Origin: Treponemataceae bacterium
GTDB lineage: Bacteria > Spirochaetota > Spirochaetia > Treponematales > Treponemataceae
Assembly: GCA_024402455.1 (NCBI GenBank)
Contig: JAKSTS010000015.1
Location: 1-27,360, forward strand
Direction of reading: 5' to 3'
DNA length: 27,360 bases
Part shown: piece by piece, positions 4,546 to 26,918 of the stretch
How positions within the stretch are numbered: position 1 is the stretch's first letter
Layout of the letters: every line of letters starts with the position of its first letter
Notes under the pieces: model-generated
What the model was told of the DNA's origin: nothing
The model's input: only the letters and a program-made list of their open reading frames with translations
Databases searched by the model: none
Translations under genes and position numbers: made by a program

Positions 4546-4800
4546 TTAGTTAAAGTCGTCGTAATCATCAAAATCGTCTTCTTCGTCAAAGAAATCATCA
4601 TCTTCTTCGTCAAAGCCGTCTAGATCATCGTCGTCATAATCTTCGTCGTCATAATCCTCATCGGCAAAATCATCGTCATCAAATTCGTCTAATGATTCAT
4701 CTTCATCATCAAAATCATCATCTTCATCGTCATCGTAGGCATCCATAAACAGGTAATCTGCCTCTAGAGTTTCGTCCAATAATTCGCTTTCACTGAGCAT
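4546..4800 (-). CDS. hyperacidic small protein, function unknown
   Basis: 84 residues, of which 38 are Asp and 14 Glu (62% acidic), with no Lys, Arg or His. After a mixed N terminus (MLSESELLDETLEADYLFMDAY) the protein is runs of Asp broken every 3-6 residues by single Phe or Tyr. I do not recognise the family. The gene looks real: AAAGGA lies about 10 bases before the ATG, a promoter TTGACA-18-TATGTT lies upstream and a minus-strand terminator lies downstream. The coding DNA is built of GAT/GAC/GAA triplets, so length variation by slippage is likely. It is the only minus-strand gene in the first 17 kb. It could be a DNA or basic-protein mimic, a chaperone-like tail or a cation binder; all three are guesses. 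Confidence 0.75.
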   Translation of the reverse strand: MLSESELLDETLEADYLFMDAYDDDEDDDFDDEDESLDEFDDDDFADEDYDDEDYDDDDLDGFDEEDDDFFDEEDDFDDYDDFN

Positions 4801-5097: not shown

Positions 5098-5958
5098 ATG
5101 TTGTCTAATGTTTTTGAACTTGCGCCTGCAAAGCTCAATTTGACTTTAAAGGTTCTTCCTAAAAGAGAAGATGGATTTCATAACATAGAAAGCATATTTC
5201 AGAAGATTCGTTTATGTGATGAATTGACTGTTTCGCGTTCTGAATCTGCTGGTTTTTCACTCCATGTCCAAGGAATGGAACTGCCGGAAGAAAACACAGT
5301 AAAAAAAGCATATACACTTTTTGCTGAGGCTGCAAAGATTCAAACAGGTGTTTCAGTTGATTTGGTCAAGCGCATTCCAAGTGGCGCTGGAATGGGTGGT
5401 GGTTCTTCTGATGCAGCTGCTATGCTTCGTGCACTTAATTCTTTGTTTTCAGCAGATGTTTCCCTGCAGGAACTTATAAAGATTGCTGAAAAAATCGGCA
5501 GTGACGTTCCGTTTTTTTTATACGGCGACTGTGCTGTTGTAAGTGGGCGTGGCGAAGTTGTTCGACCGTTTGATGGTCGAAGAGATCTATATTTTGTAAT
5601 AATTTGTCCGGATGTTCATAGCTCAACAAAAGAAGCGTATGCTCTTGTTGATGAGTGGAATATGAATGGTTCAGTTTCAAAAGTGGGTTGGCCTCTGCTT
5701 GAGGATCTTGAGGGTATTTATAGAAAACCTGTGGGTGAATGGAACTTTGCAAATAGTTTTACAGAACCGCTGGTTAGTAAATATACTGAGATTCGAGAAG
5801 CTTTGGCTGCAGTTACAGCTTCTGGAGCAGATTTCGTTGATATGACGGGATCGGGCTCAACTGTATTCGGGGTCTTTGAGACTCAAGAGAAAGCTCAAGG
5901 CGCGTATAACAGGCTTGCTTCGTGTTTTAAGCGTTGCTATTTATGTGATGCATTTTAA
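5098..5958 (+). CDS. ispE: 4-diphosphocytidyl-2-C-methyl-D-erythritol kinase
   Basis: GHMP-family kinase of the non-mevalonate (MEP) isoprenoid pathway; it phosphorylates CDP-methylerythritol with ATP in the cytoplasm. The 286-residue length is normal. LAPAKLNLTLKV at residues 8-19 and the glycine-rich ATP loop PSGAGMGGGSSDAA near residues 97-110 are diagnostic. MTGSGSTVFGVF near the C terminus is the third GHMP motif. The start at 5098 gives the usual short lead before APAKLNL. There is no Shine-Dalgarno sequence, and the perfect promoter immediately upstream implies a leaderless or nearly leaderless message. spoVG follows after 39 bases. Confidence 0.95.
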   Translation: MLSNVFELAPAKLNLTLKVLPKREDGFHNIESIFQKIRLCDELTVSRSESAGFSLHVQGMELPEENTVKKAYTLFAEAAKIQTGVSVDLVKRIPSGAGMGGGSSDAAAMLRALNSLFSADVSLQELIKIAEKIGSDVPFFLYGDCAVVSGRGEVVRPFDGRRDLYFVIICPDVHSSTKEAYALVDEWNMNGSVSKVGWPLLEDLEGIYRKPVGEWNFANSFTEPLVSKYTEIREALAAVTASGADFVDMTGSGSTVFGVFETQEKAQGAYNRLASCFKRCYLCDAF

Positions 5959-5997
5959 CACGAATTGTTCAGATATTGTTATATAAGGAGCAATCAA

Positions 5998-6282
5998 ATG
6001 CAAATCACCGAAATCCGTATCAGAAAAGTTGCTTCTGAGGGAAAACTCAAAGCTTACGTGACCGTAACTTTTGATGATTGTTTTGTCGTTCATAACGTAA
6101 AAGTTATTGAAGGCAAGACTGGATTATTCATTGCAATGCCAAGTAGAAAGACAAGAACTGGTGACTACAAAGATGTGGCTCATCCAATCAGTCCTGAATT
6201 TCGAACTGAATTGCAAGACAAGATTCTAGAAGAGTATGCTAAAGGTAATTTTGAAGAAACCGTAGCATACGAAGATGAGTAG
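5998..6282 (+). CDS. spoVG: SpoVG family RNA/DNA-binding regulator
   Basis: 94-residue SpoVG protein. In spirochaetes and Firmicutes this family binds DNA and RNA and modulates gene expression; in non-sporulating bacteria it has no sporulation role. The conserved body is complete: [11 protein letters not shown] at the start, [23 protein letters not shown], then FIAMPSRKT and [11 protein letters not shown]. The start at 5998 is fixed by a strong AAGGAG at 5985-5990 with a 7-base spacer. The gene sits 39 bases after ispE, probably read from the ispE promoter, and is followed by tRNA-Gln. Confidence 0.96.
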
Positions 6283-21877: not shown

Positions 21878-23473
21878 ATGGCAGATAAAGAAGTCCGAGT
21901 GCGCTATGCACCATCTCCAACAGGAATGCAGCATATTGGTGGTGTTAGAACTGCACTTTTTAATTATCTATACGCACGTGCAAACGGCGGCAAATTCATT
22001 CTTAGACTTGAAGACACAGACCGCACACGTTATGGCGAAGAATATGTACAAAATCTTTATGACACATTAGCCTGGCTTGGCATTGAATGGGACGAAGGCG
22101 GTCCAAAGGGTGGCGAATACGGCCCGTATGTTCAGTCTGAAAGATTTGATATTTATAAAAAATATGCAGAAGAGCTTGTTGCAAAGGGTCAGGCTTATTA
22201 CTGCTTCTGCGATGAAGAGCGCCTTGAAAGAATCCGCATGATTCAGACTAAAAACAAGATGCCTCCAGGATATGACCGCGAATGCCGTCATCTTACACCT
22301 GAAGAAGTAAAAGCAAACCTTGATGCAGGCAAACCGCATGTTATCCGTCTCAAAGTTCCAATGGAAGGTGAAACACGTTTCCATGATGCACTTCTCGGCG
22401 ACATTGAATGGAAAAACGAAGATGTTTCTCCTGACCCGATTCTGCTTAAAACAGACGGTTTCCCGACATATCACCTTGCAAATATTGTTGATGACCATTT
22501 TATGAAAATCAGCCACGTTATGCGTGCACAGGAATGGATTCCTTCAACACCAATGCATGTAATTATGTACAAGGCATTCGGCTGGGATTATCCTGATTTC
22601 TGTCATCTTCCTATGGTTATGGGAAAAGACGGACAGAAGCTTTCAAAAAGACATGGTGCAACAAGCGTAAACGAATTCCGCGCACGCGGTTATCTTCCAA
22701 AAGCTTTGATAAATTATGTTGCAATGCTCGGCTGTTCTTATGAAGACGGCCGCGATATGTATGAGCTTTGCGAACTTGAAAAATTGTTTAAGCTTGAACA
22801 TTTAAACAAAGCACCTGCTGTTTTTGACTATAAAAAGCTTGAATGGTTCAATGGTCAGTATATGCGCCTTATGAGCGACGAAGAACTTCTTGAAGCAACA
22901 ATTCCGTTCATTACAGGCACAGGTGACGCAGCAATTCCAATTAATGCAAGTGAAGAATTCCCGGCTCCTCATGTTGGACCTGAATATTCTGGCATTGCCC
23001 TTAAAGACGGAAAACTTTGCATTGCAGATTCTGCACTTGCTGCAGGAGCTGAAAACTTGAGCGATAAAGAAATCCGCGAAAAGCTTCTGGCTTTGATGCC
23101 GCTTATCAAAGAACGTCTGCATTTCCTTACAGATGCTGCTGAAATGGTCGGGTTCCTTTTCAAAAATGTTTCTGTTCCACCAGTTGCAGAAATTGTTCCA
23201 AAGCGTCTTGATGAAGCAAAAACAAAGGAAGTTCTTGAAGCTTCAAAAGAATTTATTGCAAAACTTTTTGAAATTGATGACCACGAAAAACAGGAAGAAC
23301 TTGCAAAGAGCATGGCAGAAAACCTCGGCATAAAGCTTGGTGATTTTATGATGCCTATAAGAATGGCCGTAACAGGCAGCAGAGTTTCTCCGCCTTTGAT
23401 GGGTTCAATTTTAATTCTCGGAAAAGAAAAAGCACTTGAGCGCACAAACCGCACAATTGCAACATTCAACTAA
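21878..23473 (+). CDS. gltX: glutamyl-tRNA synthetase
   Basis: Class I aminoacyl-tRNA synthetase charging tRNA-Glu. The 531 residues begin VRVRYAPSPTGMQHIGG, with the HIGH-type motif HIGG at 19-22 and RLEDTDRTR after it. The KMSKS-type motif is KLSKRHG at about residue 253. The C-terminal anticodon-binding region is alpha-helical and normal in length. AAGAGG about 7 bases before the ATG supports the start. Many spirochaetes use a non-discriminating GltX with GatCAB for Gln-tRNA; whether that holds here cannot be seen. A strong terminator follows directly. Confidence 0.97.
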   Translation: MADKEVRVRYAPSPTGMQHIGGVRTALFNYLYARANGGKFILRLEDTDRTRYGEEYVQNLYDTLAWLGIEWDEGGPKGGEYGPYVQSERFDIYKKYAEELVAKGQAYYCFCDEERLERIRMIQTKNKMPPGYDRECRHLTPEEVKANLDAGKPHVIRLKVPMEGETRFHDALLGDIEWKNEDVSPDPILLKTDGFPTYHLANIVDDHFMKISHVMRAQEWIPSTPMHVIMYKAFGWDYPDFCHLPMVMGKDGQKLSKRHGATSVNEFRARGYLPKALINYVAMLGCSYEDGRDMYELCELEKLFKLEHLNKAPAVFDYKKLEWFNGQYMRLMSDEELLEATIPFITGTGDAAIPINASEEFPAPHVGPEYSGIALKDGKLCIADSALAAGAENLSDKEIREKLLALMPLIKERLHFLTDAAEMVGFLFKNVSVPPVAEIVPKRLDEAKTKEVLEASKEFIAKLFEIDDHEKQEELAKSMAENLGIKLGDFMMPIRMAVTGSRVSPPLMGSILILGKEKALERTNRTIATFN

Positions 23474-23478
23474 AATAT

Positions 23479-23510
23479 AAAGCCGGTTCAAATCGAACCG
23501 GCTTTTTTTT
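23479..23510 (+). terminator. gltX terminator
   Basis: AAAGCCGGTTC (23479-23489) and GAACCGGCTTT (23495-23505), a perfect 11-bp stem, followed by T to 23510. A classic rho-independent terminator. Confidence 0.92.
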
Positions 23511-23520
23511 AATATTGATA

Positions 23521-23539
23521 TGCCAGATTCAGTCTGGCA
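23521..23539. repeat. small palindrome with TTCAG loop
   Basis: TGCCAGA-TTCAG-TCTGGCA. The loop and stem resemble the palindrome at 3591-3619 (TTGCCGGAAA-TTCAG-TTTCTGGCAA), suggesting a dispersed palindromic repeat. Confidence 0.45.
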
Positions 23540-23607
23540 GAAACTTGCTGTTTGTCATTAATGCAAGCAGATGTTTTAATTGATACAATAGCAGGGATGG
23601 TATTTAA

Positions 23608-23889
23608 ATGATTATTCTAAAAAAAATAGGATTAAAATTAACAATATTTAGTTTTTTAGCTTTTATAATTCAATCTTGTATTGTTAAGGATTTTGTAAAG
23701 ATTGACATATTATATACAATTTTGATGTTTTTAGGGGCTCTTCTTGAATTTTGTACGCAATATAAATTTATTAAAGAAAATAATGATGTTACACTGCAAG
23801 ATCGTAAATCTTTCATCGGTTTAATTGCTATGATGATATATAGCTTGTGTATGACAATAATTATTGTAAAATATTTTTATTTTCCTTAG
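23608..23889 (+). CDS. small AT-rich membrane protein, function unknown
   Basis: 93 residues with three hydrophobic stretches (about 9-27, 33-52 and 72-90), so an inner-membrane protein. A short charged loop (KFIKENNDVTLQDRKSF) separates the second and third. No family is recognised. GGGATGG lies about 10 bases before the ATG, and TACAAT at 23584-23589 may be a -10 box. Base composition is more AT-rich, with AT-ending codons, than its neighbours, and it sits beside a repeat array, so it may be a recently acquired or fast-evolving gene. Two good hairpins follow it. Confidence 0.65.
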   Translation: MIILKKIGLKLTIFSFLAFIIQSCIVKDFVKIDILYTILMFLGALLEFCTQYKFIKENNDVTLQDRKSFIGLIAMMIYSLCMTIIIVKYFYFP

Positions 23890-23953
23890 TTATTTTTAAT
23901 TTTATAAAGCTATTAAATTACATTCAAATAAATATCTGTTTTGTATCAGTCAT

Positions 23954-23984
23954 AACCAGTTTATGTAGCTCTCATAAACTGGTT
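23954..23984 (+). terminator. 12-bp perfect hairpin after the small membrane gene
   Basis: AACCAGTTTATG pairs perfectly with CATAAACTGGTT, loop TAGCTCT. It is followed at once by a second hairpin. Confidence 0.6.
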
Positions 23985-23985
23985 G

Positions 23986-24010
23986 CTAACGGCGTTAACA
24001 GTGCCGTTAG
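23986..24010 (+). terminator. second hairpin with short T tract
   Basis: CTAACGGC (23986-23993) and GCCGTTAG (24003-24010), followed by TCTTTTG. Together with the hairpin before it this probably ends + strand transcription ahead of the repeat array. Confidence 0.65.
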
Positions 24011-24122
24011 TCTTTTGCTGGATAAAACCAAAATATTTGGACAAACTAAATGCGAAATCATTATATAGAAGATACATCATTTGTGCCGCTTGAGCAGGCT
24101 GACGGCGGAATGTCTGTTTTTA
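24011..24122. other. lead-in to the repeat array, no gene seen
   Basis: TTGGAC (24037-24042) and TTATAT (24061-24066), 18 bases apart, could be a weak + strand promoter reading into the array. GCCG...CGGC around 24083-24106 is a possible small hairpin. Confidence 0.3.
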
Positions 24123-24457
24123 TTTAAAATACGGTATTTTAAAGCGGAGATCTTTTCCGTTTAAAATACGGTATTTATTGCGAGAAGACTTCTTTTTTGT
24201 TTAAAATACCGTATTTATTCTCAAAAAGATGTCTTTTTCATTTAAAATACCGTATTTATTTTCAAAAAGACGTCTTTTTCATTTAAAATACCGTATTTAT
24301 TTCCAAAAAGACTTCTTTTTCATTTAAAATACCGTATTTATCCACAAAAAGACTTCTTTTCATTTAAAATACGATATTTTAAAGCAAACTGCTTCCACGT
24401 TTAAAATACGGTATTTATGAGCGTCAAGAAATTCAGCTTAAAATACCGTATTTTAAA
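24123..24457. repeat. regularly spaced array of nine AT-rich dyads with interleaved second dyads
   Basis: Nine copies of TTTAAAATAC, one central C or G, then GTATTTA(T or TTAAA). Dyad centres are at 24133, 24170, 24210, 24251, 24292, 24333, 24373, 24410 and 24447, so the steps are 37, 40, 41, 41, 41, 40, 37 and 37. Copy 7 has one arm change (ATATTTT). In the core the intervening 20-22 bases are also conserved and palindromic (AAAAAGA-NN-TCTTTTT); the one centred at 24271.5 is a perfect palindrome exactly midway between its neighbours. Copies 1 and 9 are complete 10-1-10 or near-complete dyads. The array lies between convergent genes. It is not CRISPR: intervening sequences are alike and no cas genes are present. 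The likely role is a phased protein-binding array. Confidence 0.95.
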
Positions 24458-24598
24458 CTGAACAGAAAATGTTTGAACTGCTCTTTTTACTTTTTTGCTT
24501 TTCTGTTTTTGTCATTCTTGCCTTAATTATAGAATTTATCTTTTCAATTTCTGCTTCTACATTACGGGCAAAACTGCTGCATTAATTTTAAAGTGCAT

Positions 24599-24637
24599 AA
24601 AAAAAGACGCGTTCAAATTGAAGCGCGCCTTTTTTGT
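24599..24637 (-). terminator. bidirectional terminator at the pta 3' end
   Basis: AAG.CGCG.TTCAA pairs with TTGAA.GCGCG.CTT (24604-24632) with one mismatch and one bulge. It is flanked by A runs on one side and T runs on the other, so it works on either strand. It lies 20 bases past the pta stop and shields pta from the repeat array. 24458-24598 holds no visible gene. Confidence 0.8.
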
Positions 24638-24656
24638 TTTCTTGCTTTTCAGCAGA

Positions 24657-25688
24657 TTATGCCTGCAAAGCTGTAACAGCTACTGTAGCAACAATGTCGT
24701 CTACATTGCAGCCGCGAGACAAGTCGTTGAGTGGTTTTGCAAAGCCCTGGCATACAGGACCGATTGCCATCCAGCCGCCCATGCGCTGGCAGATTTTGTA
24801 GCCGATGTTACCTGCGTTGATGTTAGGGAAGATGAATACGTTTGCATGTCCTGCAACTTTGCTGCCTGGAGCTTTAAGCTCGCCAACTTCTGGAGCAACT
24901 GCTGCATCAAACTGGAATTCGCCGTCGATTGCCAGTTCTGGATGTGCAGCCTGTGTAATTTTGAGTGCTTCCTGCATTTTTGGAACAGATTTCAAATATT
25001 TGTCGTCGTTTCCGCTTCCCTTTGTTGAGAAAGAAAGCATTGCAAGACGTGGGTCAATGCCGCCGATTTTCTTTGCTGTGTCAGCTGTTGCAGCTGCAAT
25101 GTCGCAGAGTTCTTCTGCTGTTGGTTCAATGCAGAGTGCGCAGTCTGCAAACAATGCAACGCCCTCTGGAACATATTTATTGCCGCCTTCTGGAGCAACC
25201 ATGATGAAACATGAAGAAACGGTCTTAATTCCAGGTGCAGTTTTGATAACCTGAAGACCAGGGCGGATTGTATTTGCTGTTGAGTGGCATGCACCAGAAA
25301 CGAAACCGTCTGCGTCTCCTGCTTTCAAAATGAGTGCACCAAACATTGTGCGGTCTTTAAGGATATAAGCTTTTGCAGCAGCAACATCAGCGTATTCTGG
25401 AGCACCAGTTTTCTTGTTGATTTTGCCTTCGCGTGCTTTGAAAAGCAGTTCTGCATATTTGTCAGCATCTGCGCTTGTTGCCGGGTCAACAATCTTTACG
25501 CCAGACAGATCAACGCCTGGAGCAACTTTTTTGCATTCTTCTTCATTTCCAACCAGAATAATCTTTGCAATTCCGTCTTTTACAATTTTTGCAGCTGCTT
25601 CAACAACTCGTTTGTCTTCGCCTTCGCAAAGAACGATTGTCTTATTTGCAGCTTTAGCTTTTTTCAGCAAATCATCAATAAATGCCAT
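24657..25688 (-). CDS. pta: phosphate acetyltransferase
   Basis: Converts acetyl-CoA and phosphate to acetyl phosphate, the first step of acetate production. The 343 residues are the short single-domain Pta form without the N-terminal regulatory domain. Family segments are IVLCEGEDKRVVEAA at the start, ADGFVSGACHSTANTIRPGLQVIKTAPGIKTVSSCFIM in the centre, and DGEFQFDAAVAPEVGELKAPGSKVAGHANVFIFPNINAGNIGYK then RMGGWMAIGPVCQGFAKPLNDLSRGC at the end. The frame extends 13 codons further upstream, but AGGAAG just before the ATG at 25688 and the normal N terminus MAFIDDLLKKAK fix the start. It is transcribed alone; no ackA is in the window. Confidence 0.96.
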   Translation of the reverse strand: MAFIDDLLKKAKAANKTIVLCEGEDKRVVEAAAKIVKDGIAKIILVGNEEECKKVAPGVDLSGVKIVDPATSADADKYAELLFKAREGKINKKTGAPEYADVAAAKAYILKDRTMFGALILKAGDADGFVSGACHSTANTIRPGLQVIKTAPGIKTVSSCFIMVAPEGGNKYVPEGVALFADCALCIEPTAEELCDIAAATADTAKKIGGIDPRLAMLSFSTKGSGNDDKYLKSVPKMQEALKITQAAHPELAIDGEFQFDAAVAPEVGELKAPGSKVAGHANVFIFPNINAGNIGYKICQRMGGWMAIGPVCQGFAKPLNDLSRGCNVDDIVATVAVTALQA

Positions 25689-25747
25689 CGGTACACTTCC
25701 TAAAATGAAAAAATATATCAGCCGCACAGAATGCAGCCTGTTTCTAT

Positions 25748-25776
25748 AAAATACACCGATACCGCGCCATTTTCAA
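25748..25776 (-). promoter_or_regulatory. pta promoter
   Basis: On the minus strand: TTGAAA (25771-25776), a 17-base spacer and TATTTT (25748-25753). The leader to the pta ATG is about 53 bases. Confidence 0.6.
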
Positions 25777-25855
25777 GACGTTCATAAAAAAATCAACATA
25801 GCCCGCCTTGACGGGCGGATAAAATCTTTTGTCGCATTAACATTGTCGTGTAAAC

Positions 25856-25884
25856 TTGACAAATGGTTTTCATGTATATATGCT
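25856..25884 (+). promoter_or_regulatory. promoter of the GumN-like lipoprotein gene
   Basis: TTGACA (25856-25861), a 17-base spacer and TATGCT (25879-25884). A small GCCCG/CGGGC hairpin at 25801-25816 lies between this and the divergent pta promoter. Confidence 0.6.
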
Positions 25885-25949
25885 CAGGTTCAATTTAAAA
25901 ACAAGACAATTTTTGTTTTTAAGTAAAATAGTTTATATGGAGAACTCGA

Positions 25950-26918
25950 ATGGAAAAATTTAAGCGGATAGTAATTTTATTATTGATTACTTCCATGCTC
26001 TTTGTTTCGTGCGCTACAAGCGGAACTGCATCAAAAGCTCAGCTTGCTAAAACACAGGAACGTATGCTCTGGAAAATTTCTGGAACAGATAAAAATGGAA
26101 ATCCTTCAACAGTTTATCTTCAGGGAACAATTCATGTTGGAGATGAACGTCTTGTTGTTTCAAAAGAAGTTGAAAAGCTGTTTTTGAGTGCTGACCGCAG
26201 GGTCGGCGAAATTGCTTCAGATGATTATGCTGTAATTATTCAGAAAGTTTCTGAAATGATGATTGAAAGTGCAAAAGTTGCTGCAAACAGAGATTTTAGA
26301 AACGATTTGTCCAAAGAAGAAAATGATTTTCTTGCAGGTTCGATAAATGCAGAAATGCTTGAAAATTTTGCTAAATTTGAACCATGGGTTATCAATTCTG
26401 TTCTTTCTACATCAACACTGGCAGATTCAAAGCTTGATGGAAATAAAGCGCTTGATACTTATTTTGTAAATCTTGCAGCAGCAAACGGCTATAAAACAGC
26501 AGGTTTAGATGAATTAAAAACACAGCTTGATTTAGTCAGGTTTGGCGACTGGAATGATCAGCTTGAAGCACTTTCTGGAACAATTCAGATTTTCTTAGAC
26601 CAGCAAAAAAAGGCAGAAGCGTTAACCGAAATAAATGGTCTTTATAATGCATATATCAATAACGATTATGAAAAAATCGACCAGCTTATTGATGATTCTA
26701 AAAACAGTGCCGAAACGGACTATGAAAAACGGTACAACAGGTTTCTATGGCAGGCTCGCAACGAAGCATGGGCAAAAAAGATTGCACAATATATAAAAGA
26801 TGGCGGAACTACTTTTGTTTTTGTCGGTTGCGGTCATCTTGCAGGTTCAGAAAATGTTTTTACTGCAATGCAGAAAAATGGTCAGCTTAAACTTGCTGCA
26901 GAAACAGAAATTGAATAG
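25950..26918 (+). CDS. TraB/GumN (PrgY) family lipoprotein
   Basis: 322 residues. The N terminus (KRIVILLLITSMLFVSCATSG) ends in a lipobox-like LFVSC, so the protein is probably lipidated at C21 and anchored in the envelope. The GumN/TraB fold is shown by VYLQGTIHVGDERL near residue 55 with the conserved GTIHVG, the central GLDELKTQLDLV and the C-terminal FVFVGCGHLAGSENVF with the conserved GxGHLxG. These histidines suggest a metal-dependent peptidase-like activity, as proposed for the family; the substrate is unknown. GGAG about 9 bases before the ATG supports the start. It is divergent from pta and ends in a good terminator. Confidence 0.92.
   Translation: MEKFKRIVILLLITSMLFVSCATSGTASKAQLAKTQERMLWKISGTDKNGNPSTVYLQGTIHVGDERLVVSKEVEKLFLSADRRVGEIASDDYAVIIQKVSEMMIESAKVAANRDFRNDLSKEENDFLAGSINAEMLENFAKFEPWVINSVLSTSTLADSKLDGNKALDTYFVNLAAANGYKTAGLDELKTQLDLVRFGDWNDQLEALSGTIQIFLDQQKKAEALTEINGLYNAYINNDYEKIDQLIDDSKNSAETDYEKRYNRFLWQARNEAWAKKIAQYIKDGGTTFVFVGCGHLAGSENVFTAMQKNGQLKLAAETEIE

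Follow-up and report, generated by a model that had tools for sequence, protein, structure and literature searches.

The locus and its neighbouring genes

The window, that is the whole stretch of 27,360 nt that was analysed, carries at 24123..24457 an intergenic row of nine near-identical 21-bp dyads, 335 bases in all and here termed the array. On its left lie gltX and an ORF of 93 amino acids, and on its right a phosphate acetyltransferase gene (pta), whose true start may be a few codons inside the ORF given, followed by a TraB/GumN-type gene. The features are as follows, with A denoting the repeated dyad and B the dyads of the linkers.

21878..23473, + strand: gltX, glutamyl-tRNA synthetase, upstream on the left
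23608..23889, + strand: 93-aa ORF, left neighbour, without Pfam or NCBIfam match
24123..24457, no strand: whole array of nine A-dyads (pattern matches, tandem repeats, dyad scoring)
24123..24143, no strand: A-dyad 1, perfect 21-bp palindrome, centre 24133
24160..24180, no strand: A-dyad 2, 13-bp palindromic core, centre 24170
24183..24198, no strand: B-dyad, degenerate
24200..24220, no strand: A-dyad 3, centre 24210
24223..24238, no strand: B-dyad AAAAAGA-NN-TCTTTTT, centre 24230.5
24241..24261, no strand: A-dyad 4, centre 24251
24264..24279, no strand: B-dyad, perfect 16-bp palindrome, centre 24271.5
24282..24302, no strand: A-dyad 5, centre 24292
24305..24320, no strand: B-dyad AAAAAGA-NN-TCTTTTT, centre 24312.5
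24323..24343, no strand: A-dyad 6, centre 24333
24346..24360, no strand: B-dyad, less perfect, one base shorter
24363..24383, no strand: A-dyad 7, centre 24373, one central mismatch
24400..24420, no strand: A-dyad 8, centre 24410
24437..24457, no strand: A-dyad 9, centre 24447
24657..25727, - strand: phosphate acetyltransferase gene (pta), PF01515, right neighbour
25950..26918, + strand: TraB/GumN-type gene, PF01963

The sequence-only reading placed the array between convergent genes, which holds in the window (the 93-aa ORF on + and pta on -) but is not general, as the setting of the related arrays described below varies. At gathering scores, Rfam found nothing in the array and only a tRNA in the window. 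Between 23400 and 26000, 14 promoter-like sites were called against 8.0 expected (sd 3.2), and the array overlaps eight of them, which lie on both strands and all have TAAAAT for their second hexamer. These sites match at 9 of 12 positions and arise from the repeated TAAAAT. None of the eight terminator-like sites called falls in the array. Elsewhere in the window, a very acidic low-complexity ORF was seen on the minus strand at 4546-4800, with a 15-bp tandem repeat at 4624-4681.

For lepA, the best matches among 24 genomes compared were G016 (83%), G014 (82%), G015, G012 and G010 (81% each), G005 (80%) and G013 (76%). On sequence comparison the window, which is from a gut-type spirochete, belongs with the Treponemataceae genus represented by eight genomes, which is also the genus of G005, a metagenome-assembled genome (MAG) from horse faeces (Treponemataceae bacterium isolate Horse_feces312, locus L008). 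The Treponema-type origin read from the sequence thus holds. In G010, G014 and G016 a DNA homologue of the window's TraB-type gene stands beyond gltX, with ~0.9-1.4 kb of other sequence between the two genes, and no array was seen in that interval in these three genomes; G012 is also different here. As far as these comparisons go, the gltX-to-traB interval (window 23474-25949) is one that differs among genus members, like a variable insertion region. In G005, whose assembly may be incomplete, gltX was not found. The window pta (24657-25727) matches that of G005 at 81% (nt) and that of Candidatus Treponema caballi (L059) at 86%, with partial matches only, of 66-71%, in five other genus members. 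None of 80 pta loci carried AAAATACNGTATTT. The pta of the window was possibly acquired laterally.

Structure of the array

All nine A-dyads proposed from the sequence were recovered at the centres listed above, and the proposed spacings between them of 37, 40, 41, 41, 41, 40, 37 and 37 bp match exactly. With up to three mismatches allowed, TTTAAAATACNGTATTTWA has 14 matches on both strands of the window against 0.25 expected, 13 of which are inside the array (nine on +, four on -), and none of 100 shuffles reached 14. Period-41 rows were called at the array by Tandem Repeats Finder. The dyads are near-identical overall, but the seventh has GA at its centre and the ninth begins with C. Complete TTTAAA on both sides is seen only in the dyads starting at 24123 and 24363, and nearly so in that starting at 24437, the right flank being asymmetric in the remaining six A-dyads.

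Five B-dyads of uneven quality lie between A-dyads 2 and 7. The one that had been described as sitting midway between two A-dyads, at 24271.5, is real (AAAAAGACGTCTTTTT, with 8-bp arms), and is the only perfect 16-bp palindrome among the five. The claimed near-symmetry of the two strands was borne out by alignment of the array with its reverse complement (69% identity, 343 bases aligned). The array is far from a chance product, and its dyads are confirmed at the positions described.

Arrays of the same plan in a sister species

Array sequence was found in G005 at seven contig places (C2, C17, C68, C113, C120, C128 and C148). The ends of C2 and C17 have 53 identical bases in common and the two are probably one locus; C148 and C120, both of which break off inside an array, may also be one locus. 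By this count G005 would have five or six array loci. The unit consists of a 21-bp dyad, mostly TTTAAA-N9-TTTAAA, and a linker of 15-20 bp, and the steps in the G005 arrays and the window are 36-41 bp. The linkers are similar to the window's, AAGAAGTCTTTTTCA in C68 being an example. C68 has the cores ATACCGTAT and then ATATTTTAT, to which those of C128 are related; C113, C2/C17, C148 and C120 have TCACCGTGA, varied at the centre. Cores vary between and partly within the G005 arrays, and the symmetric outer parts are kept. By reading, the C113 array terminates in inverted half-dyads.

Similarity between the G005 copies extends beyond the arrays: C113 and C148 are 87% identical over 370 bp, of which ~235 bp lie left of the array, and C113 and C120 are 94% identical over 109 bp, of which ~57 bp lie right of it. 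The neighbouring genes are unrelated. They are an HD-GYP-type gene and a second HD-like gene (co-directional) at one array, MATE-like and kinase-like genes (convergent) at another, and TetR-like and chemotaxis-like genes that are divergent if C2 and C17 belong together; a ruvA-like gene and rows of small genes on one strand are found at further arrays. The Pfam scan covered the HD-GYP-type gene, a UDG gene and three ORFs that had no match, the other names being given by sequence reading. The gene downstream of the C68 array has homologues in seven genus members, and the four of these regions that were inspected showed neither an array nor a clean empty site. Near several G005 arrays there is also another dispersed repeat, ~100-140 bp long and of the type CATTCCGAAC...GTTCAGCATGAC (L091:1706-1899 and L092:190-332).

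Distribution

The two-dyad pattern matched in seven of 274 family genomes, with G005 carrying the arrays; a reversed control pattern gave scattered matches in 16 genomes. By reading of the match, those in G057, G141, G153, G202 and G250 are not arrays, and the seventh genome, G013, led to the 22-bp AATAG-N-CTATT rows described below. With a stricter pattern, two of 392 phylum genomes matched, G005 and G276, the latter being rejected as its match is not palindromic. The TTTAAA-N9-TTTAAA plan was therefore seen in no scanned genome of the family (274) or phylum (392) besides G005, these sets being overlapping and including many fragmented assemblies, and the patterns being such as would miss arrays with other cores or flanks. 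BLAST searches of the family with the array gave matches in 50 of the 274 genomes at E <= 0.01. Long ones were confined to G005, and the remaining listed matches span just ~22-78 bases and were put down to chance.

Two scans for palindrome arrays in general were also run, neither of which proves absence elsewhere. The strict one (154 sequences including the window, 1.49 Mb) found the G005 loci and L115 (G013), and missed the window's own array; the other (286 sequences including the window, 2.05 Mb) found the window only, and missed G005. In a viral collection the window-type pair had no match, and the general pair matched 18 stretches, none of them array-like on inspection. No match was found in plasmids, and those in phages were three short ones in Pseudomonas phages. 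The structure had been said to lack a named counterpart, and in the portions of the literature available to a search there was no named element that fits it.

The arrays thus constitute a dispersed, lineage-restricted family of tandem palindromes, whose unit plan is common to two species. The window array looks like one copy of this family rather than a unique landmark of the chromosome. A satellite at many sites had been named as a finding that would refute the sequence-only reading; G005 comes near to this, but the unit plan is conserved in two species.

AATAG-N-CTATT rows in other genomes

G013 has AATAG-N-CTATT rows at four places (C144, C150, C153 and C154), each with 7-8 dyads at two or fewer mismatches and steps of 22 bp or 44 bp. 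A scan of the 274 family genomes with an AATAG-type pair added three genomes, G030, G111 and G132, the last with a single pair 24 bp apart; the reversed control matched in one genome. The rows are as follows.

L233 2755-2930: row in G013
L234 6049-6225: row in G013
L235 156-350: row in G013
L236 6597-6775: row in G013
L223:1455-1534: four AATAG-like dyads in 23-bp steps, G030
L224:1501-1580: four AATAG-like dyads in 23-bp steps, G111

One pair of G013 rows is copied (contigs C153 and C154, loci L233 and L234; 86-100% per unit), and the independent rows in this genome therefore number three. In 22-bp frames the G013 units have 67-76% mean identity and are in register throughout, and across the G013, G030 and G111 rows mean unit identity is 65-76% with the 22- or 23-bp register kept. 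The spacing of the G013 rows looks constrained, to judge from the units aligned. The window falls outside the definition of these rows, as its core is AATAC-N-GTATT and its steps are 37-41 bp; homology of the 41-bp and 22/23-bp rows is only suggested, by the similarity of that core to AATAG-N-CTATT.

The G030 row lies immediately 5' of a gene coding for a Fic domain and a winged helix. In G013, integron-type integrase sequence adjoins two of the four rows, either as a frame-split gene or as a copy of its last bases. In L233 (1681-2714) the integrase gene is in two frames, both pieces below the curated cut-off, and the palindrome row is 3' of the gene; in L234, on a different contig, the last ~50 bases of the gene (~5955-6010) recur together with the row, beside small one-strand genes. 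Integrases over the integron cut-off are present in G014 and G016, and no row was seen behind either intact gene (~1.4 kb in G014 and ~260 bp to the contig end in G016). G005, a MAG that may be incomplete, had no match over this cut-off.

Helical phasing, curvature and folding

The claim that all dyads face the same side of the helix is not supported over the array as a whole. Ten dyads above score (nine A, one B) were used in the phasing test, and for the whole array R was 0.38 at 10.5 bp (Rayleigh p ~0.24) and 0.47 at 10.4 bp (p ~0.11), because the 37-bp steps correspond to ~3.5 turns; nearness to phase is confined to the core with its 40-41-bp steps. Four dyads of the G005 C68 array, separated by three 41-bp steps, are phased (R 0.79 at 10.5 bp and 0.92 at 10.4 bp), with lower values in the remaining G005 stretches (R 0.26-0.64). 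In the window array the A-tracts show their strongest periodicity at 10.25 bp, which none of 200 shuffles reached, but this rhythm is due in part to the 41-bp tandem unit itself and shuffles were the only control.

Calculated with wedge values, the predicted bend of the window array is 108 degrees per 105 bp against 46 +/- 13 in shuffles, none of 100 of which reached it; when one-unit tandems were compared with tandems of shuffled units, 11 and 4 out of 300 of the latter bent as much. From G005 and from G013 two arrays each were tested, none of them bent beyond shuffles, and curvature was therefore rejected as a property of the family. Self-folding of the + strand is strong (z = -10.8 as DNA and -12.1 as RNA), although a row of palindromes would give this in any case.

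Interpretation of the arrays

Our preferred working mode, adopted tentatively and at somewhat less than even confidence, is that the arrays are bound by a dimeric protein. Copies come to rest at unrelated intergenic sites, as is the case in the sister species, and would then grow and homogenise through local tandem duplication. Each array, as double-stranded DNA, would offer a succession of binding sites to a DNA-binding protein that acts as a dimer, with one dimer per palindrome and, in the core, a dimer roughly every two turns of the helix. Candidate roles of such a bound row are nucleoid anchoring, titration of a regulator and control of a mobile element. A register of 22/23 bp kept despite 65-76% identity is what one would predict if a protein reads the row, and the intergenic site between the 93-aa ORF and pta, with no Rfam match, also counts for protein binding. 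Differing cores within one genome, which would be odd for one sequence-specific protein, count against it, as do the variable spacing in the window (37-41 bp) and the non-significant phasing of the whole array. No candidate binding protein was found.

The distribution of variable columns was compared between the arms and the rest of the unit, by a test that was devised after the units had been viewed and with arms picked from the same data. Variable columns numbered 0/30 in the arms against 5/11 elsewhere in four of the nine window units (p = 0.0006), and 0/16 against 14/25 in five of the eight C113 units (p = 0.0001), and this avoidance of the arms in the units compared counts for a protein-bound row. 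With A-arms alone the window gave p = 0.07. Applied across species, the test fails: p was 0.71 for G005 A-arms tested on the window, and 0.09 and 0.57 for the window A-arms and the window A+B arms tested on C113.

This failure favours a close rival that is distinctly possible, namely that the arrays are a neutral or selfish dispersed repeat, in which replication slippage and recombination multiply the units, template switching perfects the arms and units are copied to new intergenic sites, without bound protein or host use. Polymerase template switching can also make and keep such symmetry (PMC8794818). The unrelated neighbours and mixed gene orientations of the G005 arrays, the gltX-traB interval in which no array was seen in three relatives, the drift of cores between arrays and the copied G005 segments that take in flanking DNA (C113/C148 and C113/C120) are all in keeping with a neutral repeat. 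Against it are the unit plan conserved in two species and, if the AATAG rows are of the same class, the 22/23-bp register held despite 24-35% mean divergence.

The REP/IS200 and integron attC systems use single-strand hairpins, and the array could, though this is improbable, be the amplified recognition site of a hairpin-recognising recombinase or transposase. Such an origin would agree with the inverted half-dyads that end the C113 array, with the integrase sequence beside two of the four G013 rows and with the strong + strand folding, though any palindrome row would fold. However, no array was seen behind the intact integrases of G014 and G016, and G005, which bears the 41-bp arrays, has no integron match over the cut-off, with the caveat that this MAG may be incomplete.

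A single-site landmark, such as the centromere-like or terminus site that had been suggested, is very improbable, since G005 has seven contig places with array sequence and G013 has four, and the scans of other relatives did not show the plan. The layout does recall sopC of plasmid F, and GC skew weakens towards the array, from ~0.15 in the left of the window to -0.04 at 24001-26000, where gene strand changes too; but there is no clear switch, the last point is positive again (0.046) and 27 kb cannot reveal one. Least credible of all is a transcribed RNA element, terminator block or promoter cluster, since the stable folds and the eight overlapping promoter-like sites are offset by the lack of an Rfam match or terminator-like site in the array, by the origin of those sites in repeated TAAAAT and by a near-symmetry that implies no strand preference.

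Returning to protein binding, a broader and rather unlikely proposal would be that the Treponemataceae rows are a new class of chromosomal protein-assembly tracks, with a palindrome every ~two turns (20.5, 22 or 23 bp), along which dimers of a protein would assemble side by side. The core would be specified anew in each species and each array, which could reflect co-evolution of site and protein, or recognition of symmetry and spacing in place of sequence. If protein-bound, the arrays would be a chromosomal counterpart in spirochetes of plasmid centromere arrays, and their DNA could be used directly as bait for that protein. If neutral, they would offer a clean natural case of palindromes multiplying, diverging and staying symmetric, which would help to separate selection from template-switch repair of palindromes.

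Comparison with known systems

CRISPR arrays consist of a regularly spaced palindromic repeat with unique spacers. The array shares the regular spacing of a palindromic repeat, but its repeat is short, its core linkers are near-identical rather than unique and the eight window proteins scanned include no cas product. Nor was any parA/parB-like or integrase gene found among these eight.

Chromosomal integrons occur in Treponema, with intI transcribed towards attI, according to PMC3607928. Integrases are present in G014 and G016 and two G013 rows adjoin integrase sequence; the array differs from integrons in being made up of rows of dyads, not single recombination sites, and in the absence of an integrase from the window proteins scanned, and several arrays, compared with attC/attI, are without cassette-like surroundings.

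The sopC centromere of the F plasmid consists of 43-bp repeats in tandem, each of which contains an inverted repeat, and partition sites of the sopC/parS type are single or few, with cognate parA/parB nearby. Likeness to sopC lies in the tandem ~41-43-bp units with an inverted repeat, located outside genes. Unlike sopC, G005 has several arrays with different cores, spread over seven contig places, the window core has an interleaved second palindrome, and no par gene was found among the eight window proteins scanned. The 43-bp repeat of sopC is named in the title of a reference within PMC9499535.

The AATAG rows resemble the window array in being tandem AT-rich dyads of Treponemataceae with ~two helical turns per dyad, and their core is one base-pair swap from AATAC-N-GTATT. 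They differ from it in having one dyad type and a regular 22- or 23-bp step, without the 41-bp unit.

REP/BIME elements are dispersed intergenic palindromes that are multi-copy, clustered and lineage-restricted. The present dyads are AT-rich and almost loop-less, and stand in regular rows of up to nine with a core that varies by array, in which they differ from REP/BIME; the arrays are, however, like them in being intergenic, palindromic, multi-copy, clustered and lineage-restricted, and G005 carries several such dispersed intergenic palindromic copies in one genome.
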